Assembly: GCA_021736445.1 (NCBI GenBank)
Contig: JAIPGA010000014.1
Location: 1-40,026, forward strand
DNA from: Synergistales bacterium
GTDB lineage: Bacteria; Synergistota; Synergistia; Synergistales; Aminiphilaceae
Direction of reading: 5' to 3'
Length of the DNA stretch: 40,026 nt
Part shown: piece after piece, positions 17,202 to 39,442 of the stretch
Position numbering within the stretch: position 1 is the first letter of the stretch
Layout of the letters: each line of letters begins with the position of its first letter
Notes under the pieces: generated by a model
What the model was told of the DNA's origin: nothing
The model's database searches: none
What the model saw: only the letters and a program-made list of their open reading frames with translations
Translations under genes and position numbers: made by a program

Positions 17202-17253
17202 ATTCGCCCGGGAAGCACATTTTTGCTGGACGCACCAGAAATACCACGAGCTT

Positions 17254-17308
17254 CCTGCCTTATTCCTGCCTTATTCCTGCCTTATTCCTGCCTTATTCCT
17301 GCCTTATT
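17254..17308 (+). repeat. Five exact tandem copies of CCTGCCTTATT
   Basis: An 11-base unit repeated five times without change. The last unit supplies the stop codon of the AlbA_2 gene (TAA on minus at 17306-17304). Copy number is likely variable through slippage. Confidence 0.95.
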
Positions 17309-18716: not shown

Positions 18717-18729
18717 TTCCTTTGGCACC

Positions 18730-20023: not shown

Positions 20024-20815
20024 ATGGCCAATCAGAACAGGGAGCTCTTCCGCTCCATCGCCCAGTCCATCGGCGAGGGCGGCCGGGGCGTGCTGTGCAC
20101 CATTGTGGACGAGACGGGATCGGTCCCGCGGGGACGGGGAGCCAAGATGTGGGTCCACCCCGACGGGACATCGGAGGGCACCATCGGCGGCGGCATCGTG
20201 GAGCAGCACGTCCGGGAACGGGGGCTGGAGCTGCTGCAGCAGGGTGAAGCCGCGGAGCTCTACAGCGAGGAGATCTCCGCCGATGTGGCCTCGCTGGAAA
20301 GCGGCAGCTGCGGCGGCAGCGTGACGGTCTTTCTGGAGTCCATCGGCCAGGAGCGGGAGGTGGTGGTCTTCGGGGCGGGCTTCATCGGCCAGTCGGTGGC
20401 CAGGACTGCGCTGATGGCGGGCTTCCGGGTGACCCTCTGGGACGACCGGGAGGATTTCGCCAACCAGGAGAACGCCCCGGGCGCCGCGGTGCTGGCCTGC
20501 CCGCTCACCGAGGCGCTGGAACGGATCCACTTCACGCCGGCCACCTACGCGGTGGTCTGCACCCGGGGACACGGCCTGGACATGGAGGTCCTGGGCGCGC
20601 TGGAAAGCAAAACCACGGCCTACGTCGGAATGCTGGGCTCGCACAACAAGAACGCCACCATCCGCAAGGCCCTGCTGGAGCGGGGAACGTCACAGGCATA
20701 TCTGGACAGTGTCCACGCCCCCATCGGGCTCTCCATCGGCGCGGACACCCCGGAGGAGATCGCCGTTTCTATTGTGGCGGAGATCATCGCCACGGTCCGG
20801 GGGGCGGCGGTCTGA
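20024..20815 (+). CDS. xdhC: XdhC/CoxI-family molybdenum cofactor maturation protein
   Basis: A 263-residue XdhC-family protein. The N-terminal XdhC domain shows GSVPRGRGAKMWV, GTIGGGIVEQ and the cysteine motif ESGSCGGSVTVFLE. A Rossmann domain follows, with VVVFGAGFIGQSVARTALMA at about residues 112-131 and YVGMLGSHNKNATIRK, a family signature. XdhC proteins bind the molybdenum cofactor, promote its sulfuration and insert it into xanthine dehydrogenase-type enzymes. The likely client here is the Mop oxidoreductase at 36526-39312. The start ATG 20024 is eight bases after GGAGG. It is separated from the rest of the molybdenum locus by the 8.1-kb cassette. Confidence 0.9.
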   Translation: MANQNRELFRSIAQSIGEGGRGVLCTIVDETGSVPRGRGAKMWVHPDGTSEGTIGGGIVEQHVRERGLELLQQGEAAELYSEEISADVASLESGSCGGSVTVFLESIGQEREVVVFGAGFIGQSVARTALMAGFRVTLWDDREDFANQENAPGAAVLACPLTEALERIHFTPATYAVVCTRGHGLDMEVLGALESKTTAYVGMLGSHNKNATIRKALLERGTSQAYLDSVHAPIGLSIGADTPEEIAVSIVAEIIATVRGAAV

Positions 20816-20827
20816 GATAGATCAACC

Positions 20828-20903
20828 TCTCCCGCAGTAGCCTCCCCGGCAAAGCCACCGGTGGAGCTGCGGGAGACACCCGTCATTCTATCCTGCATGC
20901 AAT
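20828..20903 (+). repeat. Hairpin repeat element, copy A
   Basis: A perfect 10-bp stem, TCTCCCGCAG (20828-20837) with CTGCGGGAGA (20867-20876), encloses a 29-base loop. A tail follows that ends ATCCTGCATGCAAT. From the right arm to the tail end it matches copy B at 32 of 37 positions by hand alignment. It lies 12 bases after the xdhC stop. Confidence 0.8.
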
Positions 20904-20942
20904 TCAATGCCTGACCCAAGTGTTTGCAAGGAAACATAAGGG

Positions 20943-20978
20943 CAGTGGTGTGCACCCCAACCGGGGCCCACACCACTG
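20943..20978. terminator. Hairpin between xdhC and dctP (II)
   Basis: CAGTGGTGTG pairs perfectly with CACACCACTG (10 bp). The loop contains CCCCAACCGGGG, which can pair further. It lies between convergent ends and probably terminates the cassette operon, xdhC or both. The T-runs are poor. Confidence 0.55.
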
Positions 20979-21029
20979 TATCCCTCTCTCCCGAGTCGCG
21001 CTGTTACGGTGTCACGTTCCGGGGGAACC

Positions 21030-22034
21030 TTACTCGTTGTACTGCAAGGCGGCTTCGATGAACTCGTCGCCGTACTGTTCACGGTACTGCTCGTAAAGTG
21101 GTTCCGCGGCTTCGCGGAACTTTAACTTATCTTCGTCGCTCACCTCGTTGACCTTCATGCCCTCTTCCTCGAGTTTCTCGATCAGCTCCGTATCCTGCCG
21201 GTAGGCCACGGCACGCTGCCGTTCCTTCGTTGCCTGGGCGGCATCCTTGACCACCTTCTGGTACTCTTCAGGAAGGCTGTCGAAGAAGGGCTTGTTGATG
21301 TAGAGAGCCACGGTCCCGTAGATATGCTGGGTGAGTGAACAGTAGTCCTGCACTTCGTAGAATTTCGCTGCGTAGATGATGGAGATGGGGTTTTCCTGGG
21401 CGTCCACCGTACCCTGCTGGAGCGCCGTGTAGAGCTCGCCGAAAGACATCGGGGTAGGGTTGGCGCCGTAAAGCTTGAAGGCCTTCACGTGGTATGGATT
21501 CTCCATGGTCCTGATCTTCAGGCCCTCAAGATCTCCCGGGACATTAACCGGGCCCCTGTTGTTGGTTATGTTGCGGAAACCATTCTCGCACCAGCCGAGG
21601 TTGTACATATTGCTTTCCACAAAGATCTCGTTCAGCTTTTCGCCAAAATCCCCGTCCAGCGCAGCGCGGGCGGCCTCTCGGGAGGTGAACAGGAACGGCA
21701 GGTCCATCACAGCGGCCCGCTCGTCGTATGCACTCAGGACGGAGCCTATGGCCATGGTCATCTCCAGCGTTCCCAGACTGACCGACTCCACGGCCTGCCT
21801 GTCGCCACCGAGCTGCGCGTTGGGGTAGAGCTCCACCTTGACGTTTCCGTCTGTTCCCTCTTCGATCTGTTTTTTGAATTCTTCCTTCAGGGCGATATGG
21901 GAAGCGTGCGACTCGGGAAGCACATGGGCAACCCGAATAAGATAATCCGAAGCCACAACTCCTGTGGACATGGAAACAAGAACCATCAAACTCAGAACCG
22001 CTACAACACTTACAGATAGTACCTTTTTCAACAT
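21030..22034 (-). CDS. dctP: TRAP transporter substrate-binding protein (DctP, system II)
   Basis: A 334-residue DctP-family receptor. The start ATG 22034 gives MLKKVLSVSVVAVLSLMVL, a clear signal peptide ending near STGVVASDY. Mature-domain signatures are IRVAHVLPESHASHIALKEEF, PNAQLGGDRQAVESVSLGT, and DLEGLKIRTMENPYHVKAFKLYGANPTPMSFGELYTALQQGTVDAQENP, of which IRTMENP carries the carboxylate-binding arginine. It resembles DctP of C4-dicarboxylate and related acid importers. It is the last gene of the cassette operon, 92 bases after the aminotransferase gene, and pairs with dctQ/dctM at 24348-26116. The binding protein being far from its permease genes is unusual. Confidence 0.9.
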   Translation of the reverse strand: MLKKVLSVSVVAVLSLMVLVSMSTGVVASDYLIRVAHVLPESHASHIALKEEFKKQIEEGTDGNVKVELYPNAQLGGDRQAVESVSLGTLEMTMAIGSVLSAYDERAAVMDLPFLFTSREAARAALDGDFGEKLNEIFVESNMYNLGWCENGFRNITNNRGPVNVPGDLEGLKIRTMENPYHVKAFKLYGANPTPMSFGELYTALQQGTVDAQENPISIIYAAKFYEVQDYCSLTQHIYGTVALYINKPFFDSLPEEYQKVVKDAAQATKERQRAVAYRQDTELIEKLEEEGMKVNEVSDEDKLKFREAAEPLYEQYREQYGDEFIEAALQYNE

Positions 22035-22100
22035 TTTTCTGCCCCCCTCAACTATGTCTGCCTCGTGTTCAAGGCATTCCGTCAACTATACCGCGCCACA

Positions 22101-22119
22101 TTACATCCACTCACCTCCT
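22101..22119 (-). promoter_or_regulatory. Minimal start-stop ORF with perfect ribosome site
   Basis: AGGAGG (22119-22114), a 7-base spacer, ATG (22106-22104) and an immediate TAA. It lies in the 92-base gap before dctP (II). A GTG four bases earlier would open a ten-codon leader peptide from the same ribosome site. It may hold ribosomes upstream of dctP. Confidence 0.4.
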
Positions 22120-22126
22120 CTCTCGG

Positions 22127-23302
22127 TTATCCTTTTTTGCCAAGAAAGTGCCCGTAGGCCGCCGCAAATTTTTCCATGCCCCGACTCACATCATCGCGTG
22201 AACAGGTAAAGGCGATCCGCACATACCCCGGGCTCCCAAAGGCGTCACCGGGCACGGTGGCTACCCCTTCCTTTTCGAGCAGGTAGGTGCAGAATTCAAG
22301 CGCCGATACGTCGAGGCATTCTATGGAAGGGAAGGCGTAGAACGCGCCCTTCGGTGGTGCAAAGCGAAGGCCCTCACAGGACTGGAGGGCACCCACAACC
22401 ACATCTCTCCTCCGTTCCATTTCCGCCACCATCTCACGGGTCATTCCGCTTCCCGAGCGGAGGGCCTCCACCGCGCCTTTCTGGGCGAAGGAACAGGCCG
22501 AGGTGGAAAGCATCTGATGCGTTTTCAGGAAGTAGGGATAAAGGTCTGGAGGACAGAGGATATAGCCGATACGCCACCCGGTCATGGAAAAGGTTTTGGA
22601 GAGCGAGTTCACGCCGATCACCCGGCCCGGGGTATCGGCAAATGCATAGATGTTCGCATTTTCATCGGTAAAGACAAAATCCTGGTAGCAGTCGTCCGTA
22701 ATGACATAAAGGTCGAATTCCTCGGCGAAATCCGCCAGTTTCTTCAGATCCTTTTCCGGTATTATCCCACCGGAAGGATTGTTGGGCGAGTTGATGATGA
22801 GGATCTTCGTCCGCTCCGTGACGGCGTTACGCAGACCTTCGAAATCCACCCGGTAGTACTCGTCCAGCCGGCTGGGCACGGAAACAGGGACACCGCCTGC
22901 AAGGTAGACCTGGTCGAAATAGGCGGGGAAGCAGGGAGTGGGAATGAGCACCTCATCACCGGGGTTGAGCAGTGCCATAAAGGTGACCATCTCAGCCTCT
23001 ACAGCACCGCAGGTCACAACGATTGAAGCTGCCTCCGCCTCTTTCCCCCACCGTGATTCCTGCTCTGCAATGGCTTTGCGCAATTCCGGGATTCCTTCCA
23101 AGGGGGTGTAATGGACAAACCCTTCGTCAAGCGCCTTCTGCGCTCCCTCTTTCGCCACCCGGGGAGAGTCAAAGTCGGGGCGTCCGATTTCGAAATGGAT
23201 GACCTTCTCACCCCTGTTTTCGATCTCCGCCGCAGAGGCGAGGATCTCCCGGATCCCCCCTTCAAAGGGAATATGTTCAAAGCGTCGTGAAACAGGGTGC
23301 AT
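22127..23302 (-). CDS. Class I/II PLP-dependent aminotransferase
   Basis: A 391-residue fold-type I aminotransferase of the aspartate aminotransferase Igamma group. Visible are IHFEIGRPDFDSP at about 35-47, NSPNNPSGGI (cofactor-contact asparagine at about 174-175), ITDDCYQDFVF (pyridine-binding aspartate at about 203), and the Schiff-base lysine in SLSKTFSMTGWRIGY (about 236). The C-terminal arginine for the substrate carboxylate is in YVRIAFTCS. The start ATG 23302 is eight bases after AGGAG; the frame runs further upstream. It follows the dehydrogenase gene by 4 bases. In this operon it would convert between an amino acid and the 2-oxo acid handled by the dehydrogenase. Confidence 0.9.
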   Translation of the reverse strand: MHPVSRRFEHIPFEGGIREILASAAEIENRGEKVIHFEIGRPDFDSPRVAKEGAQKALDEGFVHYTPLEGIPELRKAIAEQESRWGKEAEAASIVVTCGAVEAEMVTFMALLNPGDEVLIPTPCFPAYFDQVYLAGGVPVSVPSRLDEYYRVDFEGLRNAVTERTKILIINSPNNPSGGIIPEKDLKKLADFAEEFDLYVITDDCYQDFVFTDENANIYAFADTPGRVIGVNSLSKTFSMTGWRIGYILCPPDLYPYFLKTHQMLSTSACSFAQKGAVEALRSGSGMTREMVAEMERRRDVVVGALQSCEGLRFAPPKGAFYAFPSIECLDVSALEFCTYLLEKEGVATVPGDAFGSPGYVRIAFTCSRDDVSRGMEKFAAAYGHFLGKKG

Positions 23303-23306
23303 GGGA

Positions 23307-24311
23307 TCAGCTCCTTTTTTTCTCATCGGGAGAATTGGCTGGGCTGGCAGGTGGTTGGCCTGTAAGGACACGTTTTACTTCCATTGCGCAATGGCGGCGT
23401 AGTTCGGGCAGCGACTTGTCGGAGCGGAAGGCCGAATGGGGCGTAAACACGACATTTTCAAGAGAGAACAGGGGATCGTCCATATTGGCCGGCTCCTGTT
23501 CCATCACATCCAGCGCGGCCCCGGCAAGCTGGCCCGTAATGAGGGCTTCATAGAGATCTCTGCCGTTCACAATCGGGCCTCTGGACGTATTGACCAGGTA
23601 CGCCTCTGGTTTCATCTTGGCAAAGAGGCTCTTGTCAAAGAAGCCTCGGGTGTGTTTGTTGAGTGGGATGTGCACGGAGACCACATCGGACCTCCCGAGC
23701 ACTTCATCCAGGGAGTCCACTGTCTCCACCCCAAGCGCCTCCGCCTTCTCTTTGTCCATGCAGGGATCATGGGCCACAATCCTGCCGAACATCTGATAGG
23801 CCTTTCGGGCGGTCTCCTGGCCGATACGGCCGAATCCCACAAGCCCCAGTGTCGCCGCACCGATCTTTTTCAGGTCCCAGGCCGGGACCTTCTCGACGTT
23901 CCAGTTCCCTTTCCGTACATCCAGGTAATAGGTGTGGAACTGCTTGAGGAGGATCATGGCGAACATCACTGCATGGTCAGAAACCTCGTCCACACCGAAG
24001 GCCGCCATGTTGCATACCTGAATCCCCTCATCGGCGCAGGCTTCAAGGTCCAGATTGTCCACACCCTGGCCGTGCCGGGCGATCACCTTGCAGCGGGACA
24101 TCCTTTTCGCGACATCCCTGTCTACTAAGGTATTGGCCATGATAAGGCCGTCCACGCTCGCCAGGAAGTCGTCCCGCTTCCCTTCCTGGAAGGTGTGTTC
24201 CGGTCCGTAGGGTTCCCTGACGAGCTCAAAATCGGTGTCGCTGAATACCTCTTTTTCTATCTCGATGTCGTTGTCGTTCAAGAGACTGCAGATACCAACC
24301 CTCGTCACCAC
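23307..24311 (-). CDS. D-isomer-specific 2-hydroxyacid dehydrogenase
   Basis: A 334-residue NAD-dependent dehydrogenase of the phosphoglycerate/C-terminal-binding-protein branch. The Rossmann motif is LGLVGFGRIGQETARKAY. Catalytic residues are visible: arginine in LVNTSRGPIVN, glutamate in DVMEQEPANMDDPL and histidine in FTPHSAFRSDKS. RHGQGVDNLDLEACADEGI is the substrate-domain signature. It interconverts a 2-oxo acid and a D-2-hydroxy acid. I take GTG 24311, seven bases after AGGAG; another GTG directly follows, and the frame opens at 24326 without a ribosome site. It sits between dctM and the aminotransferase. The substrate side chain cannot be deduced. Confidence 0.9.
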   Translation of the reverse strand: MVTRVGICSLLNDNDIEIEKEVFSDTDFELVREPYGPEHTFQEGKRDDFLASVDGLIMANTLVDRDVAKRMSRCKVIARHGQGVDNLDLEACADEGIQVCNMAAFGVDEVSDHAVMFAMILLKQFHTYYLDVRKGNWNVEKVPAWDLKKIGAATLGLVGFGRIGQETARKAYQMFGRIVAHDPCMDKEKAEALGVETVDSLDEVLGRSDVVSVHIPLNKHTRGFFDKSLFAKMKPEAYLVNTSRGPIVNGRDLYEALITGQLAGAALDVMEQEPANMDDPLFSLENVVFTPHSAFRSDKSLPELRRHCAMEVKRVLTGQPPASPANSPDEKKRS

Positions 24312-24347
24312 CGGGCATCTCCTCACTTTCGTTGTAAGCTTCTCTGA

Positions 24348-25628
24348 CTAATCCATGAGACTGGGCAAAAACATTGAAAGCTGCGGTATGTATGTAATCA
24401 GGATAAGCGAAATAAGCATTGAGAGGATCAACGGCCATACAAAACGGGATATCTTGTCCACTGGAACCCCCGATACGGCAGAGGCAATGAAGAGATTCGC
24501 TCCATAGGGAGGCGTGACAAACCCGATTGAGAGATTGACGGTGAGGAATATTCCAAAATGGATCGGGTCGATCCCCAGCTGCATCACCACAGGCAGAAAG
24601 ATCGGGGCGAGAATGACACAGGATGAGATATTGTCGATAAAACACCCCACAAGGAGCAGGAATATGTTGATCAGGATGAGCAGAACCAGCGGACTCACGG
24701 CAAGGTTTGTCAGGAAGTTGCCCACCATGGCGGGTACCTGCTTCATTGTCACCAGGCCGGCAAAGGAGACGGACAGACCCAGGATGAATGTAACCGCCCC
24801 GTTGATGAGCATGGTGTCACGGAATGAACTGTAGATCTGCCTGAATCCCAGTTCCTTGTAGATGAAGCATCCCACGAAAAGCGCGTACACAGCCCCCACT
24901 ACAGCGGCCTCGGTGGGGGTGAAGATACCGCCATAGATACCGCCGAGGATGATAATCGGTACCAGCAATGCCCATATTGCTTCCTTGAGTGCCTGGACCG
25001 TCTTCCGTGCCGACGGTTTTCCCTCTGTGCCCCGGTAACCGTGCTTTTTCGAAATAAAGTAGTTGGCCGCCATGAGCAGCACGCCGATAAGGATGCCCGG
25101 CAGGATCCCGGCGATAAAAAGCGCTCCGATGGAGGTACCCGTGACCACACCGTAGATGACAAAGGGGATACTGGGAGGGATGATCACGCCTATGGAGCCG
25201 GCGGCCGCCGTAATGGCGGCGGCATACCCCCCGGGATAGTTTTTCTCCCGCATGGAGGGAATCATGAACGAACCGATAGCTGAAACGGTGGCTGGCGCAG
25301 ACCCGGAAATGGCGGCAAAAAACATGCAGGTCAACGTCGTTACCATGGCCAGGCCGCCTGTGAGGTACCCTACCAGTGTGTCGGCCAGGTCGAGCAACCG
25401 CTTCGAAATACCGCCATAGCGCATGAGATTGCCTGCGAGGATGAAAAAGGGAATAGCCATAAGCGGGAAAGAATCAAGACCGGCGAAAGCATTCTGGGCA
25501 ACCATCAGTGTGGGGATGTGCGAGAAAAGAACCAGACTCAGCACCGTGGCGATACCCAGGGCGATCCCGATAGGAACGCTGAGGGTCAGGAAGAAGAGCA
25601 GCCCCCCGAAGAGAACAAGAAGCATCAT
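24348..25628 (-). CDS. dctM: TRAP transporter large permease subunit (DctM, system II)
   Basis: A 426-residue polytopic membrane protein of standard DctM length. Motifs are SGSAPATVSAIGSFMIP, GSIGVIIPPSIPFVIYG (the PPS loop) and VNLSIGFVTPPYGANLFIASA. The start ATG 25628 overlaps the dctQ stop by four bases (ATGA). It forms the transport path with DctQ at 25625-26116, and the receptor is encoded at the operon end (21030-22034). It is clearly different in sequence from the DctM of system I, so the two TRAP systems are not recent duplicates. Confidence 0.93.
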   Translation of the reverse strand: MMLLVLFGGLLFFLTLSVPIGIALGIATVLSLVLFSHIPTLMVAQNAFAGLDSFPLMAIPFFILAGNLMRYGGISKRLLDLADTLVGYLTGGLAMVTTLTCMFFAAISGSAPATVSAIGSFMIPSMREKNYPGGYAAAITAAAGSIGVIIPPSIPFVIYGVVTGTSIGALFIAGILPGILIGVLLMAANYFISKKHGYRGTEGKPSARKTVQALKEAIWALLVPIIILGGIYGGIFTPTEAAVVGAVYALFVGCFIYKELGFRQIYSSFRDTMLINGAVTFILGLSVSFAGLVTMKQVPAMVGNFLTNLAVSPLVLLILINIFLLLVGCFIDNISSCVILAPIFLPVVMQLGIDPIHFGIFLTVNLSIGFVTPPYGANLFIASAVSGVPVDKISRFVWPLILSMLISLILITYIPQLSMFLPSLMD

Positions 25629-26116
25629 GACTGCTCACCTCGCGCAGGAGCGCTGACCTGGCGGAGTATCATTCGCTGGAAGAGCCGCAGCGACATAAGG
25701 CTGCACCCTACCGGGACGGAAAGATATGCCCATGCCATAGGCAGGCGCATCGCCGGCGAGAGCTGCATCCTGTCAAAGAGCATGGAGGTAAGCTGGGAGG
25801 ACTTGAGCGACAGGAATATACTGAAGGCTATCCAGATGGCAAATACAACCCAGTCGAGCTTTCTCTGGGCGCTCTCGCTCATGAAATTTTTGATGAATTC
25901 CACCCGGATATGGGCGGAGTGTTTGACCGCAAAACTCGTTCCGAGCCAGGTCTGCCATACGAAGATGTACCGGGCAAGCTCCTCGCTCCAGGAAAGCGAA
26001 GACTGAAAGATGTACCGCATGACCACCTGCATGAATATGAGTGCGACCGTAAAAACAAGAGATGGAATAAGAATAACTTCTTCGAATCTTCGGTCGAGAA
26101 AACGTAAGAACCGCAC
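25625..26116 (-). CDS. dctQ: TRAP transporter small permease subunit (DctQ, system II)
   Basis: A 163-residue protein with four hydrophobic segments (about 15-33, 48-68, 90-110 and 125-148). SLSWSEELARYIFVWQTWLGTSFAVKHSAHIRVEF contains the DctQ hallmark (SEELARY-F-W--f-G), in which the short core EELARYIFVWQTWLG is diagnostic. The start is GTG 26116, seven bases after GGAGG. The stop overlaps the dctM start. A small hairpin with a T-run separates it from the amidohydrolase gene upstream. Confidence 0.92.
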   Translation of the reverse strand: MRFLRFLDRRFEEVILIPSLVFTVALIFMQVVMRYIFQSSLSWSEELARYIFVWQTWLGTSFAVKHSAHIRVEFIKNFMSESAQRKLDWVVFAIWIAFSIFLSLKSSQLTSMLFDRMQLSPAMRLPMAWAYLSVPVGCSLMSLRLFQRMILRQVSAPARGEQS

Positions 26117-26138
26117 GCACCTTCCTCCCTTCCGCTAC

Positions 26139-26163
26139 AAAAACAACCGCCCCAAGGGGTTTG
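26139..26163 (-). terminator. Possible attenuating hairpin before dctQ (II)
   Basis: On minus, CAAACCCC, TT and GGGGCGGTTG form a small stem. TTTTTG follows at the DctQ-proximal end. It lies in the 49-base gap after the amidohydrolase gene and may reduce read-through into the transporter genes. Confidence 0.35.
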
Positions 26164-26165
26164 AT

Positions 26166-27728
26166 TTACCGCCAGTCCTCCGGGTTGCCCCACACGGCAC
26201 GGCCCTTCGTAAGGGTGAGCACCGCCTCTGTTTCCTGCAGCGTTTCCGGGGCCCGGGAGGCCACGTCACGGTTGAGAACAGTGATATCCGCTTTGTAGCC
26301 CGGCTTGATTTTCCCAAGCGTTTCAGAGCGTCCGGCTGAACGATGGCCGTTCACCGTGTACAGCGTCAGCGCTTCTTCCAGGGAGACCTTCTCCTCCGGC
26401 TTCCAGCCGCCTTTCGGTGCACCCTCGTCGTTCACTCGGTTTACGGCAGCCCAGATACCCCGCCAGGGATTCATCTGTTCACAGCCGGCGTCACTGGAAC
26501 CGCAAACCAGGAGTCCGGCGTTGAGTAACGAGGTGCAGAAATAGCCGTATTCACTCCGGTCGGAGCCGAGACGCTGTCCAAGAATCGACATATCGGTGGG
26601 CACCATACCCGACTGGATGTCGCAGACCACGGCATCCTTGAGGTGTGCGAGCTCGGCTATCTGGTCGGGCCTGCAGAGCTGTACGTGGTTCAGCCGCAAG
26701 GGGTAAGTAAAGGGGGTTGACCTGGGAAGGTCGAGCTTGTTGGCCAGGGAAAGGAACTGATCGATTGCCGCATCGCCGATAGCGTGAATCTGCGTCTGGA
26801 TGCACCTGTCCTGGGCTTCCTGCAGAATTGGAAGCAGGTCCTCCTCGTTGTGGTTGAGAACCCCCCAGTTCCCCGGATCGTCGGCGTAGGGGGCGGAAAG
26901 AGCGGCAGAACGAGGCCCCAGGGCACCATCCAGGAAGACCTTGAACCCTCCATAGCGGAGAAACTCGTCACCGAACCCACTGCGTATGCCCAGGGCGGGA
27001 AGAGTCTCGTCATAGAGTGTGATCCGCAGAGGGAGCTCACCGGATTCATTGAGCGCCTGCAGTGCGGGATAGTCCTCTCCAAGACCGTAGGAATCGGCAC
27101 TGCAGGCGTGTATGGAGGTGACACCAAGGGCAGCAAACTCCCTGCAGGCCTCTTTGAGGATCCGCTCCGTCTCTCGCGGTGAATACATTTCCCGTTCCAT
27201 GGTTGCAACAATTCGATTGGCGTCCTCTTCGTGGAATATCCCCGGGTGGTCATCGCCACAGGCAACGCCAGATCGCTTCAAAGCATTGCTGCTGGCTACA
27301 TGCACATGCCCGCAGGTCCGCACCAGATGGATGGGGTTGGGCAATTGCAGCCCGTCGAGTTCGAAACGGGTGGGGATCTCGTTTTCCGGCCAGCGGGTCT
27401 CGTTGAAGCCGATGGCGAACATCCAGTCACCGGGCTTCGTGTCAGCCGCATGTTCTCGGATCATCCTGAAGAGCTCATCCTTGGAACCAACCTGGGAGAG
27501 GTCCAGGGCGAGTTTCTGCCGTGCGTAGGCCGTAAGGTGCACGTGGGTATCGCACAACCCCGGCAAAACGGTATTTCCGTCGAGGGTCACCCTCTTCGGA
27601 CACTTCGGTGCGTCACTCTCATCGCCTACAAAAGCTATATACCCATCCTTCAGATAGACAGCGTGCCCTTTCGGCAAAAACCTCTCACCGTCCCAGATGC
27701 GGCCTCCTCTGATCAACAGCTCAGTCAT
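26166..27728 (-). CDS. YtcJ-type amidohydrolase (amidohydrolase family 3)
   Basis: A 520-residue metal-dependent hydrolase of the YtcJ/NfdA type. The N-terminal composite domain reads LIRGGRIWDGERFLPKG. The metal motif is LCDTHVHLTAYA (HxH) at about residue 60. Later ligands are TQIHAIGDAAIDQFLSL (histidine and aspartate region) and CGSSDAGCEQMNPWRGIWAA, where the family has the last metal-binding aspartate. GKIKPGYKADITVLNRD is the usual end. Known members hydrolyse N-substituted formamides or amides. It is cytoplasmic, with no signal peptide. The start overlaps the regulator's stop by eight bases, so it is the first structural gene of the cassette. It may release the acid or amine processed by the downstream aminotransferase and dehydrogenase. 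Confidence 0.88.
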   Translation of the reverse strand: MTELLIRGGRIWDGERFLPKGHAVYLKDGYIAFVGDESDAPKCPKRVTLDGNTVLPGLCDTHVHLTAYARQKLALDLSQVGSKDELFRMIREHAADTKPGDWMFAIGFNETRWPENEIPTRFELDGLQLPNPIHLVRTCGHVHVASSNALKRSGVACGDDHPGIFHEEDANRIVATMEREMYSPRETERILKEACREFAALGVTSIHACSADSYGLGEDYPALQALNESGELPLRITLYDETLPALGIRSGFGDEFLRYGGFKVFLDGALGPRSAALSAPYADDPGNWGVLNHNEEDLLPILQEAQDRCIQTQIHAIGDAAIDQFLSLANKLDLPRSTPFTYPLRLNHVQLCRPDQIAELAHLKDAVVCDIQSGMVPTDMSILGQRLGSDRSEYGYFCTSLLNAGLLVCGSSDAGCEQMNPWRGIWAAVNRVNDEGAPKGGWKPEEKVSLEEALTLYTVNGHRSAGRSETLGKIKPGYKADITVLNRDVASRAPETLQETEAVLTLTKGRAVWGNPEDWR

Positions 27729-28476
27729 TGTTCACCGCCCCCATGGTCTGCATGTTATGTATGCGGATCTTCAGGCTGGTTGTGAAGTGCGCCTGAAGTT
27801 TTTTCTTCACGGCATCGGCGTCCCGCTGCTCCAGGGACTCGACGATTGCCAGGTGATCTTCCAGGCTCCGTTTCATTTTTTCCTCGGGCCACACGTGATC
27901 GGAACGCCAGTACTGGATTTTCATGAGTGACAGCAGTTCCCTGAGAAATCGCACCATTACCTCATTGTTGGTGGCCTCAGCAAGAGCGACATGGAAGTCG
28001 TTGTCGTAGCTGTGGTAATTTTTGATATCCCGCTCTTCTGCGCTTTTCCTGAGTGATTCATAGATCCCCCGGACCCTCCGGAGCGCCTCGTCATCGGCCC
28101 TGCGCACGGCAACCTCGGCAATTACAGGCTCCAGCATGATCCGGGCAAAGAAGGCCTGAAAGCTGCCATTGTTCCCTTCGATTTCTTCCAGCATCTGGAG
28201 CAGCTCGTTGTTGACCTCAACGGTTTCACTCTGCTGCCCAAGGAGATTCTTCTCCTTCACGTACGTCCCGTCACCGGCCCTCCGCTCGATCACATCCATG
28301 AGCTCCAGTGCGCTTAACGCTTCCCGGACGGCTGTCCGGCTTACACCGGTCTGCTCAATGATGGACATCTCGCTTGGCAGCTTGTCGCCTGTCCTCAATT
28401 CGCCCCGCTCAATGGCCTCAAGGATCTGCTTGGCCACGAAGGATGTCTTTTTTTCCTTGGTCATACGCTCAAACAC
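27721..28476 (-). CDS. FadR-subfamily GntR transcriptional regulator
   Basis: A 251-residue regulator. The N-terminal winged helix (about 8-75) contains GELRTGDKLPSEMSIIEQTG and VSRTAVREALSALELM, the classical GntR helix-turn-helix. The all-helical C-terminal FCD domain shows DNDFHVALAEATNNEVMVRF (Asp/His metal or ligand site) and the final histidine in SLEDHLAIVESLEQRDAD. I prefer GTG 28476, six bases after GGTGGGG, because the resulting start MFERMTKEKKTSFVAKQIL fits the subfamily; ATG 28464 is the alternative. It is the first gene of the operon and would repress it until an acid ligand binds. The operator lies at 28495-28507. Confidence 0.9.
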   Translation of the reverse strand: MFERMTKEKKTSFVAKQILEAIERGELRTGDKLPSEMSIIEQTGVSRTAVREALSALELMDVIERRAGDGTYVKEKNLLGQQSETVEVNNELLQMLEEIEGNNGSFQAFFARIMLEPVIAEVAVRRADDEALRRVRGIYESLRKSAEERDIKNYHSYDNDFHVALAEATNNEVMVRFLRELLSLMKIQYWRSDHVWPEEKMKRSLEDHLAIVESLEQRDADAVKKKLQAHFTTSLKIRIHNMQTMGAVNND

Positions 28477-28494
28477 GACGATCCCCACCCGACG

Positions 28495-28507
28495 CAAATG
28501 ACATTTG
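28495..28507. promoter_or_regulatory. Likely FadR-type operator
   Basis: CAAATG-A-CATTTG is a perfect 13-base palindrome at about +2 to +14 of the promoter. ATGACAT occurs twice (28498-28504 and 28509-28515), so a second half-site overlaps the start point. The position suits repression by the gene product directly downstream. Confidence 0.6.
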
Positions 28508-28515
28508 TATGACAT

Positions 28516-28544
28516 ATTATAGATGACCGATTTCAGAGCGTCAA
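28516..28544 (-). promoter_or_regulatory. Strong sigma-70 promoter of the catabolic cassette
   Basis: TTGACG (28544-28539), exactly 17 bases, TATAAT (28521-28516). The start point would be near 28509, giving a leader of about 33 bases before the regulator gene. Confidence 0.8.
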
Positions 28545-28973
28545 GCTTGAGGTCAACAGGGCTCTGCACCTTGATTGCATAGAGCTACTAAGGTAAACCA
28601 GGGAGGACAGAAAGGACGGAACGTAATGCGGGAAGAGTGACAGGAAGACAACAGGAGAGGGCAGAATATTATACAACCAGGGCAGTCACACTGCAATCTG
28701 CCCAATTGCCGTAAACACAAAAATTAGAGGCTTTTTGTTAGATAATTTATGGTTTATTGCACTTCACTGCAAGCTAGAACTTGAAAAAAGGGGAGAGAGG
28801 TCTGATGCCGACTTCCACCATGCTCCCTCCGGCCTACAGAGTAAAACCAACGGCCTGATACGCAATAACGCCTCCCGCAATTCTCCCGGTGGCTTTCACC
28901 GTGGACACCACTGCGGGAGGCGCCCGTCGTTGCATCCTGCATGCAATACCAGGCCCGGAGTTCTTGGGTTGGC
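28545..28973. other. Intergenic region right of the cassette
   Basis: About 430 bases, AT-rich in the middle, without a recognisable gene. It contains a small hairpin GGGCAG/CTGCCC (28680-28703), an AT-rich dyad ACAAAAA/TTTTTGT near 28720-28740 and hairpin repeat copy B (28870-28947). A minus-strand open frame crosses the repeat but has no ribosome site. Confidence 0.5.
28870..28947 (+). repeat. Hairpin repeat element, copy B
   Basis: A perfect 10-bp stem, GCCTCCCGCA (28870-28879) with TGCGGGAGGC (28912-28921), encloses a 32-base loop. The tail ends ATCCTGCATGCAAT exactly as in copy A. The loop shares CCGGTGGCTTT with the reverse complement of copy A's loop. It lies just past the 3' end of the phosphatase gene. 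Confidence 0.8.
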
Positions 28974-29588
28974 CTACAGCGACGGCCGCCAGTTGACGGC
29001 GAGGATGCGGGGGCTGCCGCCGGGGCGGAGGATGGTGACGCCGCCGTAGTCGAAGGTGAATGCGAAGAGCTGCCGCCAGGGGAGCTCCAGCAGATGCCGG
29101 AAGAGCACCCGCAGGACACCGGCGTGGGTGACGCAGCAGAGGGTCGTCGCTCCGGTGACGGCAAAGGCCTCCTCGATGGCGGGGGCGACCCGCCGCTGGA
29201 GATCCTCGAAACTCTCGCCCCCAGGCGGGTGGTGGGTGGCAAGCTCGCGGCCCCGTCGGTCGAACTCATCGGGGGCTTCGGCTTGGATCTCGCCGAAGCT
29301 CCGGCCCTCCCATTCGCCCAGGGAGATCTCCTGCAGCCCCGGAACGGTACGCCTTGCAAGGGAACGCCTGCGGCAGGCGGCGATGATCTCACCGGTTTCG
29401 TCGGCCCTGACGAGGCCGCTGGTGACCAGGGCGTCGAAGGGGATCCCCGCGAGGGCCCGGCCGGTCGCGGCGGCCTGGTTGCGGCCCTCTTCCGAGAGGG
29501 GGACGTCCTTCCGGCCGAGGTAGATCTTTGTTCCCCCGGGGATAACGGGACGGCCGTGGCGAACGAGATAGAGCAGACGGTCATCCAC
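28974..29588 (-). CDS. Histidine phosphatase family protein
   Basis: A 204-residue phosphoglycerate-mutase-like phosphatase. The catalytic RHG motif is in LLYLVRHGRPVIPGG at about residues 8-14. LSEEGRNQAAATGRAL and SGLVRADETGEIIA (second active-site arginine) follow, then the acid residue in LQEISLGEWEGRSF and the second histidine in CCVTHAGVLRVLFRHLL. Relatives include CobC, GpmB and ribazole-phosphate phosphatases. The start is GTG 29588, which overlaps the preceding gene by eight bases; the ribosome site is weak and coupling is likely. It is the last gene of the mod operon. A role in cofactor or nucleotide metabolism is inferred from context only. Confidence 0.85.
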   Translation of the reverse strand: MDDRLLYLVRHGRPVIPGGTKIYLGRKDVPLSEEGRNQAAATGRALAGIPFDALVTSGLVRADETGEIIAACRRRSLARRTVPGLQEISLGEWEGRSFGEIQAEAPDEFDRRGRELATHHPPGGESFEDLQRRVAPAIEEAFAVTGATTLCCVTHAGVLRVLFRHLLELPWRQLFAFTFDYGGVTILRPGGSPRILAVNWRPSL

Positions 29589-30708
29589 TGACGGCCACCA
29601 CATTCTGCGCCAGATCGCCCAGGGAGAGGCCGGTGCAGCGCCCCCACGCCTCGCGCACCTCCATGGCTTTCCCCATACGTCGGGCCACAGCGGTCTGGGC
29701 CTCGGCATTGCCGGCGAACTGCGCCTCTTTGGTTCTGGTACGCTCCTCCAGGGGGACATACTCCTCACCGCTCACCGTCTTGTCGGCCAGATAGAGCAGC
29801 TCCCGCTCGCCCGGCGGATCCAGGATAACGGGATCGGGCAGATCCATATGGTCGGCGACGATCCCCGCCAGTTTGGGGAATCCCTGTCGCGTGAGCAAGT
29901 CGGCGGCCGCCTCGCCGTGACGGCGCTCTCCCTTGGCCAGGTCGTGGAGACGGGCAGCCGCGCCGAGGTAGACCCGGTCCACGGGGTAGCCCTTCCCTTC
30001 AAGCGCAGCGGCCAGGGCGTCGGCCAGCGCGGCCACGGCTTCACTGTGGCGCCGCACCGCCTCCGCCGTTCCGGCGATCTCGAAAAGGGCCTCCTCCTCT
30101 TCCGGCGTAGGCAGTTCCCGGCCGGCGATGGCGGCCAGCTCTTCGTATTCCTCTGGGCGGTTCATCCCCACGTGGACCCCCACGTCGGCCACATCGACCA
30201 CCACAGTGCTGTCGTGGTAGTTCCGCAGAAGCCCGCGCAGACCGTCGTGGCCGTCCCACTCCAGGATGGGACCCACCAGCCGCCGGGAGATCCAGGGCGG
30301 GTGCCCCCGAACACTGCGGAAACGCGGGGAGACCACGTCGCAGTCACCCTGGGCGGCCCGCTCCATCACCAGACGGTAGCTGCTGCTCCGCGCCAGCGGC
30401 GTGTCCGAGGGCAGCAGCAGAAACCCCTCCACATCCTCGGGGAGTGCGGCGACCCCGGTCTGGACGGAGGAAAACATCCCCTCGGGATAGCGTTCGTTGT
30501 ATGCCGCGGCGCAGCCCAGGCGTTCCGCCACGGGTTCCACCGCTTCGCGCCAGTGGCCGGTGACGACAATGGTGTGGCTGACGCCGGCGGCCTCCAGCCG
30601 ACGCTGGGCGAACTCCAGGGCGGGGAGACCGGCCAGCGGCAGGAGGGACTTGCAGCGCCCCATGCGGGAGGCGTAGCCGGCGGCGAGGATCACGGCTGCT
30701 GTCTTCAT
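29581..30708 (-). CDS. MobA-like nucleotidyltransferase fused to HD domain
   Basis: A 375-residue two-domain protein. Residues about 1-195 are a MobA/MocA-type NTP transferase: VILAAGYASRMGRCKSLLPL is the nucleotide-binding loop, and LLLPSDTPLA and GHPPWISRR are the metal and cofactor loops. Residues about 215-340 form an HD phosphohydrolase domain with LHDLAKGERRHGEAAADLL (HD pair) and IVADHMDLPDP. MocA enzymes attach CMP to molybdopterin for aldehyde oxidoreductases, so this is the probable cofactor-finishing enzyme for Mop. What the HD domain does is unknown. The start ATG 30708 is nine bases after AAGGAG. Similar MobA-HD fusions occur in Desulfovibrio. Confidence 0.87.
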   Translation of the reverse strand: MKTAAVILAAGYASRMGRCKSLLPLAGLPALEFAQRRLEAAGVSHTIVVTGHWREAVEPVAERLGCAAAYNERYPEGMFSSVQTGVAALPEDVEGFLLLPSDTPLARSSSYRLVMERAAQGDCDVVSPRFRSVRGHPPWISRRLVGPILEWDGHDGLRGLLRNYHDSTVVVDVADVGVHVGMNRPEEYEELAAIAGRELPTPEEEEALFEIAGTAEAVRRHSEAVAALADALAAALEGKGYPVDRVYLGAAARLHDLAKGERRHGEAAADLLTRQGFPKLAGIVADHMDLPDPVILDPPGERELLYLADKTVSGEEYVPLEERTRTKEAQFAGNAEAQTAVARRMGKAMEVREAWGRCTGLSLGDLAQNVVAVSG

Positions 30709-30712
30709 CTGC

Positions 30713-31138
30713 TCACGCTCCTTCGTCCTCTATTTTCGCACATTCCCGGCAGAGGCCGTAGACCACCAGCTGCTTGCCGCGGACCCTGGCCCCCCTGGGA
30801 ACCTCCACGTAGGGCAGCGACTGGCTGGTGAGGCACTCCATCCTGCCGCAGCCTGTGCAGAGAAAGTGGGGATGGTCGCCGGGGCAGCCCTTCTGAGAGG
30901 GTCGGTGGGCACAGAAGTGCCAGGCGCCGTCCATGCCCTGCACCTGGTGGACCAGGCCGGCCTCTTCCAGGGCGTAGAGGGTGCGGTAGAGGGTGACCTT
31001 GTCCATCTCCTCCATGCCGGGACAGGCACGGATCTGGGGGTTGGTCAGCGGCCGCCCGGCCCGGTAGAGCACGCGGAGCACCGCTTCGCGGGCCTCGGTG
31101 GGCCGGAGGCCGAAACGCTTCAGGATCGCGGTCTCCAT
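30713..31138 (-). CDS. Fur-family metalloregulator
   Basis: A 141-residue Fur/Zur/PerR-family repressor. The N-terminal winged helix shows LRPTEAREAVLRVLYRAGRPL and VTLYRTLYALEEAGLVHQV (recognition helix). The dimerisation domain has HPHFLCTGCGRMECL and GLCRECAKIE, the two CxxC pairs that bind structural zinc. The classical Fur regulatory segment is altered by an insertion-like PSQKGCPGD before the HPHF motif. It is encoded within the modABC/cofactor operon, four bases before the MobA-HD gene. Fur proteins bind 7-1-7 palindromes, and two such sites lie on the modA promoter. This makes it the likely local regulator. Its effector is unknown. Confidence 0.88.
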   Translation of the reverse strand: METAILKRFGLRPTEAREAVLRVLYRAGRPLTNPQIRACPGMEEMDKVTLYRTLYALEEAGLVHQVQGMDGAWHFCAHRPSQKGCPGDHPHFLCTGCGRMECLTSQSLPYVEVPRGARVRGKQLVVYGLCRECAKIEDEGA

Positions 31139-31144
31139 GGCAGA

Positions 31145-32194
31145 TCAGGAGCGGGCGGCGAAGCTGCAGGCCGGGTAGATGCAGGCGCTACAGCGGCGGC
31201 AGAGCCCCCCGACACCCCAGCGGCGCACGTCGGCCTCGTTGGGACGTCGTCCGGCGAAGAGCTGGTCCAGCAGGAGGTCCAGGGTGGTCCGTTCGTCGTG
31301 GACCACACAGGCCGGCGCCCCCACCACGGCGGTCTGTCCCGCGGTACCAAGCATCAGCATGGAGCCCGGCAGCGACGGCACCCCCTGGAAGGCGATGTCG
31401 CTGCAGACACTCCGGATGGCGCCGGGTGTCCTGTCGTTCACGTCCACGCTCATGCCGCCTGTGCAGACCACCAGCTCGGCCCCCGTCGCGACGAAACCCC
31501 GGATGGCGTCGGCCACGGCGGCTTCGTCGTCGGTGACGATCTCCCGGCCCAGGAGCCGGGCGCCCTAGTAGTCAAGCTTGCGCTCCAGCCTGGGGCGGAA
31601 GGCGTCTTCCACCCGGCCCTCGGCGAGCTCCCGGCCGGTGGTGACCAGGCCCGTTTTGAGGGGCAGGAAGGGCTGCACGCCGATGGGCTCCGCCAGGGCC
31701 TCGGCGGCGGCGACGTGCTCCTCGGTGGTCCAGAGCGGCCGGATACGGAAGGAGGCCACCACCTCACCCTGTTCGACGGGGATATGGGGCGGCAGGGTGG
31801 CCACGATCCATTCGCTGTCGGCGTTGATGGCGTGGACCATCTCGGCGTCGAACGCAAGAAGACCGCGGTGCTCCGCACGGAGGGAGCATTTCCCCTCGCC
31901 GGGACCCTCGCAGTCCACGCCGACGCCGGTGAGCCCGGCGGCCAGACGGAGGGCGGCGTCGTCCTCGTGGACCTCCCCTTCGTCCAGATGGAGGATGGCG
32001 AGGTGCTCCCTGCCCATGGAGCGCAGGGTCTCCAGATCCTCTTCTTTCACCACGTAGCCCTTTTTGAACCGGGGGCCCTTGTAGTGGGTCGCCGGGATAA
32101 CCTGGGTGAGGTCGTGGGCCAGCGGATGCCCCACGGCCTCCTCCAGCGCCAGGATCTCCTGTTTCGATTGTACCTTCTGGAGGGTCTCACTCAT
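31145..32194 (-). pseudogene. Molybdopterin-binding-domain protein interrupted by TAG
   Basis: One frame encodes a 349-residue protein broken by a single in-frame TAG at 31567-31565. The first part (from ATG 32194, about 209 codons) reads MSETLQKVQSKQEILALEEA, then GHPLAHDLTQVIPATHYKGP and VGVDCEGPGEGKCSLRAEH. The second part begins GARLLGREIVTDDEAAV and contains the MoaB/MogA-type signature VVCTGGMSVDVNDRTPGAI, then PGSMLMLG, GAPACVVHDERTTLDLLL and a cysteine-rich end (GGLCRRCSACIYPAC). The frame on both sides is intact, so only one codon is affected. Such proteins occur with selenium- or molybdenum-dependent hydroxylases and probably handle the cofactor. The codon could be a nonsense mutation, a sequencing error or read through. 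No strong start is seen for the second part. Confidence 0.8.
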
Positions 32195-32343
32195 GATCGC
32201 CTTCGTCTCCCTTCGCTGGTTCTCGCCAGACAACACACGACCCGCGTGCCGCCGCAAACGCGCATCCTTCTTCTATCCCCTCGCTGCAAGGGGCAACGGC
32301 TGGAGATGACCCGCTCCACCGTCACGCCACCTGCCGCAGGTGC

Positions 32344-33528
32344 TCATTGTCGCCTGGCATGGACGGTTTCCGCAGGCCTCCCCATGCCACCGCCCTCCTC
32401 CGTATCTTCCTGTCCGCTTCCTCCAAGGTCATCACGGGCACTCCCCCGCCGGTCCAGCACGGTGACATCCCGGCAGCGGAAGGCCATGAGCACCCGAGCT
32501 CCCTCGCCGGTTTCCATGTTCCGGTAGGAGTTGCCCGGGTATTCCACGTGCCAGTGGATCCCGGCCCCTTCCACGGTCAGCCGGACGGTGCTGCCCATGT
32601 CGAGGCGCTCCACCACAGTGCCTTCCACCACGTTGGGCGCCAGCGTGGGGTCCACCTGCACGCCGGGGTAGAGCAGCTTGATGTCGTGGGGCGCGATGAA
32701 GGCCAGTCGCTCCCCACGCTCGCGCACCGCCGGAGCGAGACGGAAGGCGCGGTCCTTCCAGCGCAGCGCCGGGCCGCCGGGGGTGTCGATAACCTCGCCC
32801 TCCAGCAGATTGCCCCACTGCAAAGCCTGCCAGACTGTGTCCTGGGCCTCGCCCCGCCAGAGCGATTCGACAGGCAGCGATCCCGAGAGTGTGCCCTCCC
32901 GGAGAAAGAAGATCCGGTCCCCCAGGGCGCAGACATCCTCGATCTGATGGGTCACGTAGAGCATGGGCACCCCCGTCTCCCGGTGGAGCTCCTTGAGGGT
33001 GCGCCGCAGACTCCGCCGCAGCGGTCCGTCCAGGGCGCTGAAGGGCTCGTCCAGTAGAAGGAGCGCCGGTTCGGCCGCCAGCGCCCGGGCCAGGGCCACT
33101 CTCTGCTGCTGCCCGCCGGAGAGCTCGCCTGGGTACCGGCCTTCCATCCCCTGGAGGTGGAGCCTGTGAAGCCAGCGATCCGCCTGTCCCAGCGCCGATG
33201 CGCGGCTGACGCCACGCAATCCGTAGGCCACGTTCTGTCGGGCCGTCATGTGCGGGAAGAGCGCCAGCTCCTGGAAGACCAGCCCGATCCCCCGCCGCGA
33301 CGGGTGGAGTGCCACGCCTCCATCGCTGTCGTGGAGCGTCGCGCCGCCGAGGACCACCCTGCCGCGTCTGGGCCTGCCCAGACCGGCGAGCAGTCGAAGG
33401 GTCAGACTCTTGCCGGATCCGCTGGGGCCGAAGAGGATGCCGATCTCCCGGTCCATGGCGAGATCCACAGCGAGACGGAACCCGCCGAGTTCGTGGTAGA
33501 GCGAGGCCTCAAGCCAGCTGTCTGCCAT
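32344..33528 (-). CDS. modC: Molybdate ABC transporter ATP-binding protein
   Basis: A 394-residue ATPase. Motifs are FGPSGSGKSLTLR (Walker A), VFQELALFPHMT (Q-loop), LSGGQQQR, ALLLLDEPFSALD (Walker B) and YVTHQIEDV (switch histidine). The C-terminal part (about 230-365) holds a Mop/TOBE-like regulatory domain (NVVEGTVVERLDMGSTVRLTVEGAG) that binds oxyanions in ModC. The tail of about 30 residues is polar and unusual. It overlaps modB by 20 bases. About 150 bases separate it from the next gene, with a CACCTGC-C-GCAGGTG dyad (32328-32342) just beyond its stop. Sulfate or tungstate importers are close relatives; the cofactor genes around it favour molybdate. Confidence 0.88.
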   Translation of the reverse strand: MADSWLEASLYHELGGFRLAVDLAMDREIGILFGPSGSGKSLTLRLLAGLGRPRRGRVVLGGATLHDSDGGVALHPSRRGIGLVFQELALFPHMTARQNVAYGLRGVSRASALGQADRWLHRLHLQGMEGRYPGELSGGQQQRVALARALAAEPALLLLDEPFSALDGPLRRSLRRTLKELHRETGVPMLYVTHQIEDVCALGDRIFFLREGTLSGSLPVESLWRGEAQDTVWQALQWGNLLEGEVIDTPGGPALRWKDRAFRLAPAVRERGERLAFIAPHDIKLLYPGVQVDPTLAPNVVEGTVVERLDMGSTVRLTVEGAGIHWHVEYPGNSYRNMETGEGARVLMAFRCRDVTVLDRRGSARDDLGGSGQEDTEEGGGMGRPAETVHARRQ

Positions 33529-34156
33529 AGCCGCCTCCTTCCAGGGAACGCACCAGCGCCAGCGCCGCCACGGCGGCCACCGTCAAAACCAGCGCCGCCA
33601 GGTTGGCGGCGGCGAACTCCAGCGCCTCCACCTGGCTGAAGATATAGAGCGGCAGCGTCTGGGTCCGCCCCGGGATGTTGCCCGCCAGCATGAGGGTGAC
33701 GCCGAAATCCCCCAGCGCCCGGGCCGAGGCCAGCGCCACGCCGGCGGCCAGTGAGCGGCGGCTGAGACGGAGGGTCACCTTCCGGAAGACGGCGAACTCG
33801 CCGTCGCCCAGGGTACGGGCGGCGCCCCCCACCTCGCCGGGCACAGCAGCGAAACCGACGCGGGCGCTCTGGACCATCAGCGGCAGCGAGGGCACCAGTG
33901 CGGCCAGTGCGGCCGCCGGAAAGGAGAAGACAAAGCCCAGCTCCTGCAAAAGCGGCAGATGCCCGAAGAGCATCAGCAGGTAGAGCCCCAGCACGGCCGG
34001 GGGGAGCGCCACGGGGAGCAGCACCAGAAAGGAGAGCAGTCTGCGCCCCGGGAACTCCCGCTTGGCCAGCACCCAGCCGATGGCCGTCCCGAGAACCAGC
34101 AGCAGCGGCACGTCAACGGCGAGCACCTTGAGGCTCACCAGCAGGGCGGAGGTCAT
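33509..34156 (-). CDS. modB: Molybdate ABC transporter permease
   Basis: A 215-residue inner-membrane permease with five hydrophobic segments, the size and topology of ModB. ARTLGDGEFAVFRKVTLRLSRRSL is the EAA loop that contacts ModC. GDFGVTLMLAGNIPGRTQTLPLYIF is a ModB signature. Its ATG overlaps the modA stop by one base (TGATG), and its 3' end overlaps modC by 20 bases, so all three are translationally coupled. Confidence 0.92.
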   Translation of the reverse strand: MTSALLVSLKVLAVDVPLLLVLGTAIGWVLAKREFPGRRLLSFLVLLPVALPPAVLGLYLLMLFGHLPLLQELGFVFSFPAAALAALVPSLPLMVQSARVGFAAVPGEVGGAARTLGDGEFAVFRKVTLRLSRRSLAAGVALASARALGDFGVTLMLAGNIPGRTQTLPLYIFSQVEALEFAAANLAALVLTVAAVAALALVRSLEGGGYGRQLA

Positions 34157-34884
34157 CAGCGCTCCAGCGGGAGCAGGCCCATTGACCGCCAGGTGGCGTC
34201 TTCTGCGGGTTGCCGGCAGAATTCCCAGAAGGCCCTGGCGCTGGGTCCCGCATCCGGAGCCAGGCCGCCAACCTGTGGTGTGGTCATCCCCTCAAGCACC
34301 AGCATGGCGCCCCCCACCTTCTGTGCTGCGCTCCGGGGCACAAAGGCCAGATCGGCGGCGCCGTGGCGCACGGCCATCACCGCCTGGGGCGCACCGCCGA
34401 CAAAGGCGGTCCGCTCCGTATCACCGTACCGCACCCATTCGCCGCGCTCCTGAAGGTACTGCTTGGCCAGCAGGCCGTAGGCGGTGCTGTCGGGCTCCGG
34501 AATGGCCACCACGGCATCCGGCGCGGGAGGCCAGCTCGGCGGCGCTTCCCCCTCCGCCATGAGCACCAGCTGCCCCCGGGCGAAGGGGGCCACATCCACC
34601 AAGAGGCCCTGTTCCTCCATCCAGCCCGGCCAGCGGGGCTCCGAGAGCAGCACGATGTCGAAGGGAGCACCGGATTTCATCTGCCGGGCCAGCGCCCCGC
34701 AGGGGCCTTTGACCAGATCGAAGGGTTCGCCTCCCTGGTCAACGAAGTCGTCGATGACGGCCTCCACGGCCGGCGCGATCCCCGCCGCCACGGCCATGAC
34801 CTCCGCATTGGCCTGCCGGACAGGAAACACCATCAATAGAAGAAAACAGAGAAGAGCGAGAGAAAACAGAGACAGTTTGTTCAC
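34156..34884 (-). CDS. modA: Molybdate-binding periplasmic protein
   Basis: A 242-residue oxyanion receptor. The start is GTG 34884, seven bases after AAGGA, giving a signal peptide (MNKLSLFSLALLCFLLLMVF then QANAEV). The mature domain has the ModA layout: MAVAAGIAPAVEAVIDDF, GPCGALARQMKSGAPFDIVLLS (serine/alanine oxyanion loop; the usual SSG is replaced by GPCG), PDSTAYGLLAKQYLQ and GAADLAFVPRSAAQ. At roughly 220 mature residues it is of normal size. It is the first gene of the molybdenum operon. The longer upstream frame to 35112 has no ribosome site and would lack a signal peptide at its start. Confidence 0.87.
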   Translation of the reverse strand: MNKLSLFSLALLCFLLLMVFPVRQANAEVMAVAAGIAPAVEAVIDDFVDQGGEPFDLVKGPCGALARQMKSGAPFDIVLLSEPRWPGWMEEQGLLVDVAPFARGQLVLMAEGEAPPSWPPAPDAVVAIPEPDSTAYGLLAKQYLQERGEWVRYGDTERTAFVGGAPQAVMAVRHGAADLAFVPRSAAQKVGGAMLVLEGMTTPQVGGLAPDAGPSARAFWEFCRQPAEDATWRSMGLLPLER

Positions 34885-34920
34885 GATATGTTCCTTTCCT
34901 GCACGAACTAACGGTCCACG

Positions 34921-34955
34921 CCGGACGCACAGACAGGAGGACGATGTGCGTCCGG
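34921..34955 (-). promoter_or_regulatory. Leader hairpin upstream of modA
   Basis: CCGGACGCAC pairs perfectly with GTGCGTCCGG (10 bp) around a 15-base loop containing CCTCCT on the message strand. It sits 37 bases before the modA start in a leader of about 160 bases. Its loop could pair with a ribosome site, but no T-run follows. Confidence 0.5.
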
Positions 34956-35035
34956 GTGGAACCGTGAGGATGTCCGGCCTCTTTCGCACCACCGTACACC
35001 GTGCTGTAGCGCGAGACGGCCTGTCATGCCTATTC

Positions 35036-35088
35036 TGCAACCGGGTTGCAGTATACGCAACAACATCCCGACATGCAACCGAGTTGCA
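35036..35088 (-). promoter_or_regulatory. modA promoter with two 7-1-7 operators
   Basis: TTGCAT (35078-35073), exactly 17 bases, TATACT (35055-35050) form a good sigma-70 promoter. TGCAACC-G-GGTTGCA (35036-35050) is a perfect 7-1-7 palindrome over the start region. TGCAACCGAGTTGCA (35074-35088) is a near copy over the -35, with centres 38 bases apart. Both overlap promoter elements, so a bound dimer would repress. The Fur-family product of this operon is the obvious candidate. Confidence 0.75.
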
Positions 35089-35096
35089 CTGAGGGG

Positions 35097-35129
35097 AAAA
35101 TGTTCGGGGCACGGCGACGCCGCGCCCCG
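35097..35129 (-). terminator. Terminator of the HEPN-MNT operon
   Basis: On minus, CGGGGC-G-CGGCG, T, then CGCCG-T-GCCCCG form an 11-bp stem with one mismatch. AACATTTT follows. It lies beyond the hepT stop and upstream of the modA promoter, insulating the two. Confidence 0.65.
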
Positions 35130-35896: not shown

Positions 35897-35984
35897 CTCG
35901 ACCTCCGCGTCATGGAGCATTCCAACCGCCTTCGGTACCATATGTATTGTACGCCCTACGGCTCTCCGACTCCACCTGCGGCAA

Positions 35985-39386: not shown

Positions 39387-39442
39387 CATCTCTTTCAGCA
39401 ACCAGCTACGGCACGGCACGCCTGCTGTTGCCTACTACGCTC

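Follow-up and report, generated by a model that had tools for sequence, protein, structure and literature searches.

The closest described systems are the XdhC/MobA-HD/Mod maturation locus (families NF045665 and NF045668), accessory catabolic cassettes or genomic islands carrying TRAP operons, and integron gene cassettes with attC sites. A linkage of XdhC with MocA is on record in other bacteria (PMC2997495). The window, the whole 40,026-nt stretch of DNA analysed here, is one entire contig (C14) of a 2.45-Mb draft genome of a Synergistales bacterium (97.6% complete, 112 contigs, 3.35% estimated contamination). It carries the same maturation gene set as f6 relatives, and its MobA-HD and aldehyde oxidoreductase pass the curated cut-offs, but its xdhC lies 8.1 kb away, pointing towards its partners from outside. 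The intervening block resembles accessory cassettes and islands: it is self-contained, has its own regulator and promoter, occurs at differing loci and varies between siblings, the last demonstrated at a locus of genomes G003 and G002 rather than at that of the window. It differs from them in containing no integrase or transposase, in the lack of a tRNA gene anywhere in the window, and in being bounded by a unique pair of hairpins. With integron cassettes the block shares imperfect, directly oriented hairpins at either end; unlike these, it has seven genes rather than one, its own promoter and no intI within the cassette. Read by eye, the tail of the border element does not appear to match the attC core motif GTTRRRY. 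An accessory catabolic operon stands between xdhC and the molybdenum genes that normally accompany it, most likely through old insertion at, or together with, the border element.

ORF calls and Pfam matches confirmed the gene content and coordinates of the original prediction, in which seven genes split xdhC from the HisP/MobA-HD/mod block (Table 1). The plus-strand xdhC is followed by the seven minus-strand cassette genes (20912–28871) and then, also on the minus strand, by HisP, MobA-HD, Fur, molybdopterin-binding, ModC, ModB and ModA genes and lastly by the aldehyde oxidoreductase gene, whose product is the likely client of the molybdenum genes. Cassette transcription runs from GntR/FCD through Amidohydro_3, DctQ, DctM, the D-2-hydroxyacid dehydrogenase and the aminotransferase to DctP. 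The 3' ends of xdhC and HisP are intact. The window XdhC scores below the NF045664 cut-off. The aldehyde oxidoreductase gene is preceded by a Moco (molybdenum/tungsten) riboswitch (39427–39551, minus strand, 72.7 bits). The molybdopterin-binding gene is broken into two ORFs by an in-frame TAG at 31565–31567, a frame that is open in 7/7 relatives checked; this reflects either gene decay or an assembly error.

Table 1. Positions of genes and sequence elements at the xdhC–molybdenum locus of the window.
Feature	Coordinates	Strand	Evidence or remark
xdhC, XdhC-family molybdenum hydroxylase maturation factor	20024..20815	+	Pfam XdhC_C 2e-39
Left border element: 47-nt hairpin CTCCCGCA...TGCGGGAG + 36-nt tail (CCCGTC.TT..ATCCTGCATGCAAT)	20829..20911	+	starts 14 bp past xdhC stop
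Hairpin 3' of dctP, probable end of cassette operon transcript	20950..20985	-	folding z -5.2; weak terminator-like site
DctP, TRAP solute-binding protein	21030..22085	-	Pfam 6e-98; TIGR00787
PLP aminotransferase class I/II	22127..23299	-	Pfam 1e-66
D-2-hydroxyacid dehydrogenase (PGDH-like)	23307..24326	-	Pfam 5e-54
DctM, TRAP large permease	24348..25628	-	Pfam 3e-125
DctQ, TRAP small permease	25625..26116	-	Pfam 5e-30
Amidohydro_3 metal-dependent hydrolase	26166..27728	-	Pfam 7e-81
GntR/FCD regulator	27721..28569	-	Pfam FCD 9e-26, GntR 5e-18
Sigma-70-like promoter TTGACG-17-TATAAT	28516..28544	-	11/12 matches
Right border element, orientation as left copy	28872..28955	+	ends 18 bp from HisP stop
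HisP, histidine phosphatase (alpha-ribazole-phosphatase-like, below cut-off)	28974..29768	-	profile match
MobA-HD, DVU_1551-family NTP transferase	29581..30708	-	NCBIfam NF045665 359.6 bits, cut-off 315
Fur-like regulator, molybdopterin-binding gene (in two ORFs), ModC, ModB, ModA	30713..35112	-	
Molybdopterin-dependent aldehyde oxidoreductase	36526..39312	-	NCBIfam NF045668 1426.9 bits, cut-off 1100

Each cassette border carries one copy of an 83/84-nt element composed of a hairpin and a tail, the two copies lying in direct orientation. Both have the same hairpin arms (CTCCCGCA/TGCGGGAG), their 36-nt tails share 28 identities including an exact run of 14 nt, and overall they are 81–82% identical. 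One of the two hairpins is flipped relative to the other, since the interiors match well only when one is reverse-complemented (score 26.5 versus 1.5 head to head; 0/5000 shuffles). The similarity of the borders was reached in 0/300 shuffles, and with the shared tail the likeness of the hairpins is stronger than originally proposed. BLAST and a covariance model, together with a motif scan of 473 kb, revealed no third copy in this genome; the other 179 genomes of the order gave chance-level matches only, viral contigs gave none, and no Rfam family matched above noise. We considered whether the hairpins merely close operons, as terminators or REP-like structures do, and have no bearing on the arrival of the operon. 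Each does lie just 3' of a gene (xdhC or HisP), and a related cassette in genome G039 is flanked by two terminator hairpins alike in a TTCCCGCA motif. This explanation is nevertheless quite improbable: neither hairpin is followed by a T-run or was called as a terminator, the shared tail lies outside the hairpin, the searches above found no other copy in the genome, and both elements coincide with GC change points.

The lower GC of the cassette holds locally, at 0.557 compared with 0.66–0.70 in the adjoining genes. A two-change-point fit placed the maximum-likelihood changes at 20885 and 28885, each inside a border element (3-lnL ranges 20745–20910 and 28805–29010). The position of a unique direct-repeat pair exactly at the two borders, coinciding with these change points, argues for an insertion. 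The foreign composition implied by the original prediction was not borne out. Set against 273 ORFs drawn from 433 kb of this genome, the cassette genes lie at the 27th–48th percentile for GC3 and the 5th–75th for codon likelihood, and xdhC, HisP and MobA-HD at the 85th–99th percentile for GC3. Whole-gene GC of the cassette is low (1st–19th percentile), mostly owing to codon positions 1 and 2 and hence to the kind of protein encoded (membrane, transport); GC equal to or lower than that of the cassette was found in 8 of 278 same-size windows of the sampled genome. The GC step is real, but it arises where flanks of unusually high GC meet a fairly ordinary segment. Because the codon usage of the cassette is ordinary and its flanks are unusually GC-rich, composition gives no sign of a recent foreign origin and was discarded as evidence for one. 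A local GC dip may thus signal unusual flanks, not an unusual insert. Counting against the insertion are the native-like codon usage, which gives no mark of foreignness, and the 81–82% identity of the repeats, which records no fresh event.

It is scarcely credible that the repeats are where a foreign contig was wrongly attached during metagenome assembly. The draft is fragmented, with 112 contigs and the contamination estimate given above, and local GC differs, but the element copies share no exact run longer than 14 nt, a length that would not mislead an assembler, and the cassette codon usage fits the host genome. Moreover, nothing in 180 genomes matches the cassette amidohydrolase more closely than a paralogue encoded on contig C42 of its own genome, at 56% identity. 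To judge from the sequences, this proximity to an own-genome paralogue hints at gene exchange within the module.

As had been supposed, xdhC normally keeps company with molybdenum genes. Of 28 loci examined in relatives, 25 have xdhC near such genes, usually less than 200 bp from one, counting MobA-HD, HisP, Fur, molybdopterin-binding, mod and aldehyde oxidoreductase genes. The cassette, which might have proved a fixture of this position throughout the clade, stands beside xdhC in none of the 28; a distantly related aminotransferase (35–38% identical) occurs near xdhC in three. This usual linkage, with no TRAP cassette beside xdhC in relatives, favours an insertion. HisP and xdhC are spaced by 26–53 bp in three genomes of one genus (G015, G043 and G056), and in other families xdhC either has MobA-HD and Fur as its two neighbours or runs in tandem with the block.

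The same comparison bears on a rearrangement, in which the operon already lay beside HisP, and recombination at the repeats brought xdhC, along with the 2,4-diaminopentanoate dehydrogenase gene, to the other side of it. The convergent xdhC–HisP arrangement of the window was seen in no relative, and in the two same-family genomes that have both genes (G002 and G003) the XdhC and MobA-HD matches are at separate loci, the better-matching xdhC copy having no molybdenum genes nearby. These two observations also count against an insertion between convergent genes, as does the lack of an empty site in a close relative, the window genome being the sole representative of its genus (g1) among the genomes searched. 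Further in favour of a rearrangement, the window XdhC forms a long lone branch in the XdhC tree and the cassette composition is native-like. Even so, we regard relocation of xdhC as possible but unlikely: direct repeats and sharp change points where the low-GC block begins and ends are the hallmark of an insertion, and in no relative does the cassette adjoin HisP/MobA-HD. With xdhC and MobA-HD apart in the same-family genomes, either piece may have moved.

The original prediction also anticipated the cassette at other loci with the same repeats. The cassette was there, with all seven genes in unchanged order, at G003:C85 and G039:C8, loci unrelated to that of the window; the repeats were not, as the border element flanks the cassette in neither genome. 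Neither the G003 island nor the cassette within it is bounded by shared repeats. A repeat match flanking the G039 cassette proved to be the two terminator hairpins and not the border element. The G003 and G039 cassettes are 65–86% identical to each other and 40–71% identical to that of the window, and several further genera have looser versions with a permuted gene order. The G003 cassette belongs to a stretch of ~19 kb that is missing from the close sibling G002, in which the matching flanks are 96.7–97.5% identical. Given the seven-gene unit elsewhere and this presence and absence between siblings, the cassette is, as judged from comparative sequence data, an accessory catabolic module. No relevant paper on a described cassette of this kind was found in the literature. 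The G003 segment (~19.4 kb, L157 8412 to L201 8791 versus G002) also holds a second catabolic cluster with glycine-dehydrogenase-like, antiporter, amidohydrolase, SDR and GntR genes.

The operon has the regulator of its own (GntR/FCD) and the strong promoter that had been predicted. TTGACG-17-TATAAT, read on the operon strand from 28544 to 28516, was the best among five matches; the true start of GntR/FCD is probably downstream of it, and the conserved part of the protein starts near 28464. The cassette operon would probably run independently, from its own promoter under GntR control. From the protein families, the TRAP transporter would take up an organic acid (carboxylate) or amide for cleavage by the amidohydrolase, and the aminotransferase and dehydrogenase would interconvert amino, 2-oxo and D-2-hydroxy acids. 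No substrate-naming family model was present among the profile matches to the cassette proteins, and the closest solved structures to the amidohydrolase are uncharacterised hydrolases. The dehydrogenase is of a generic family: its named relatives on genome contigs were only distant (30–36% identity), and its plasmid-borne relatives were all below 60% identity, the best at 36–39%.

The window contains other oddities. A GC-poor AlbA_2/HATPase_c_4 ORF (17304–18728), whose GC3 falls at the 0th percentile, lies between the copies of a perfect 46-bp direct repeat (region 17156–18809). The repeat duplicates the end (3') of the neighbouring 2,4-diaminopentanoate dehydrogenase gene, and its distal copy would encode a different C-terminus. 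This is a clear recent insertion. No homologue of the ORF was found at E<=1e-20 in 20 relatives, and a perfect 11-bp tandem repeat of 5.3 copies (TTCCTGCCTTA) lies at the insertion edge (17252–17309). A HepT/MntA-like toxin–antitoxin pair occupies a low-GC patch between modA and a cupin gene (35269–36061); since the cupin gene directly follows modA in G017 (L124), this pair would seem to be the third insertion at the locus. A sugar transporter ORF at 13278–14180 matches only the second half of its family profile (168–449 of 452) and is probably truncated.

On balance, we think it probable that a seven-gene accessory operon was inserted long ago between convergent xdhC and HisP of the molybdenum aldehyde-oxidoreductase maturation locus. 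The cassette's occurrence as a unit elsewhere, its presence in G003 but not in G002, its own promoter and regulator, the close spacing of HisP and xdhC in G015, G043 and G056, and the intact 3' ends of xdhC and HisP all support this. No recombinase, integrase, transposase or resolvase was found within the cassette, whose seven genes are all metabolic, transport or regulatory; the lack of a recombinase, and of the element around the G003 and G039 cassettes, weighs against the insertion. The entry between xdhC and its partners suggested by the original prediction fits an accessory module; the direction of the event, its mechanism and the substrate of the operon are inferred, and entry by way of the repeats would fit the geometry. 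The two direct 84-nt copies would have been left or used by the insertion and so mark its joints. In the simplest route, a DNA circle, or a fragment carrying one element, would have recombined with an element copy between xdhC and HisP. We give very little credence to the idea that the 84-nt element is an undescribed recombination site by which catabolic operons without a recombinase move from one gene end to another, with the hairpin interior flipping from copy to copy. The insertion in the window looks old, because divergence is deep, the repeats are 82% identical and codon usage is ordinary. Under this preferred reading, a metabolic operon joined an unrelated cofactor-maturation locus without breaking a gene, and both joints are still marked by unique repeats; as an accessory-gene insertion it would be fairly ordinary, and of note chiefly for joints that are still visible.
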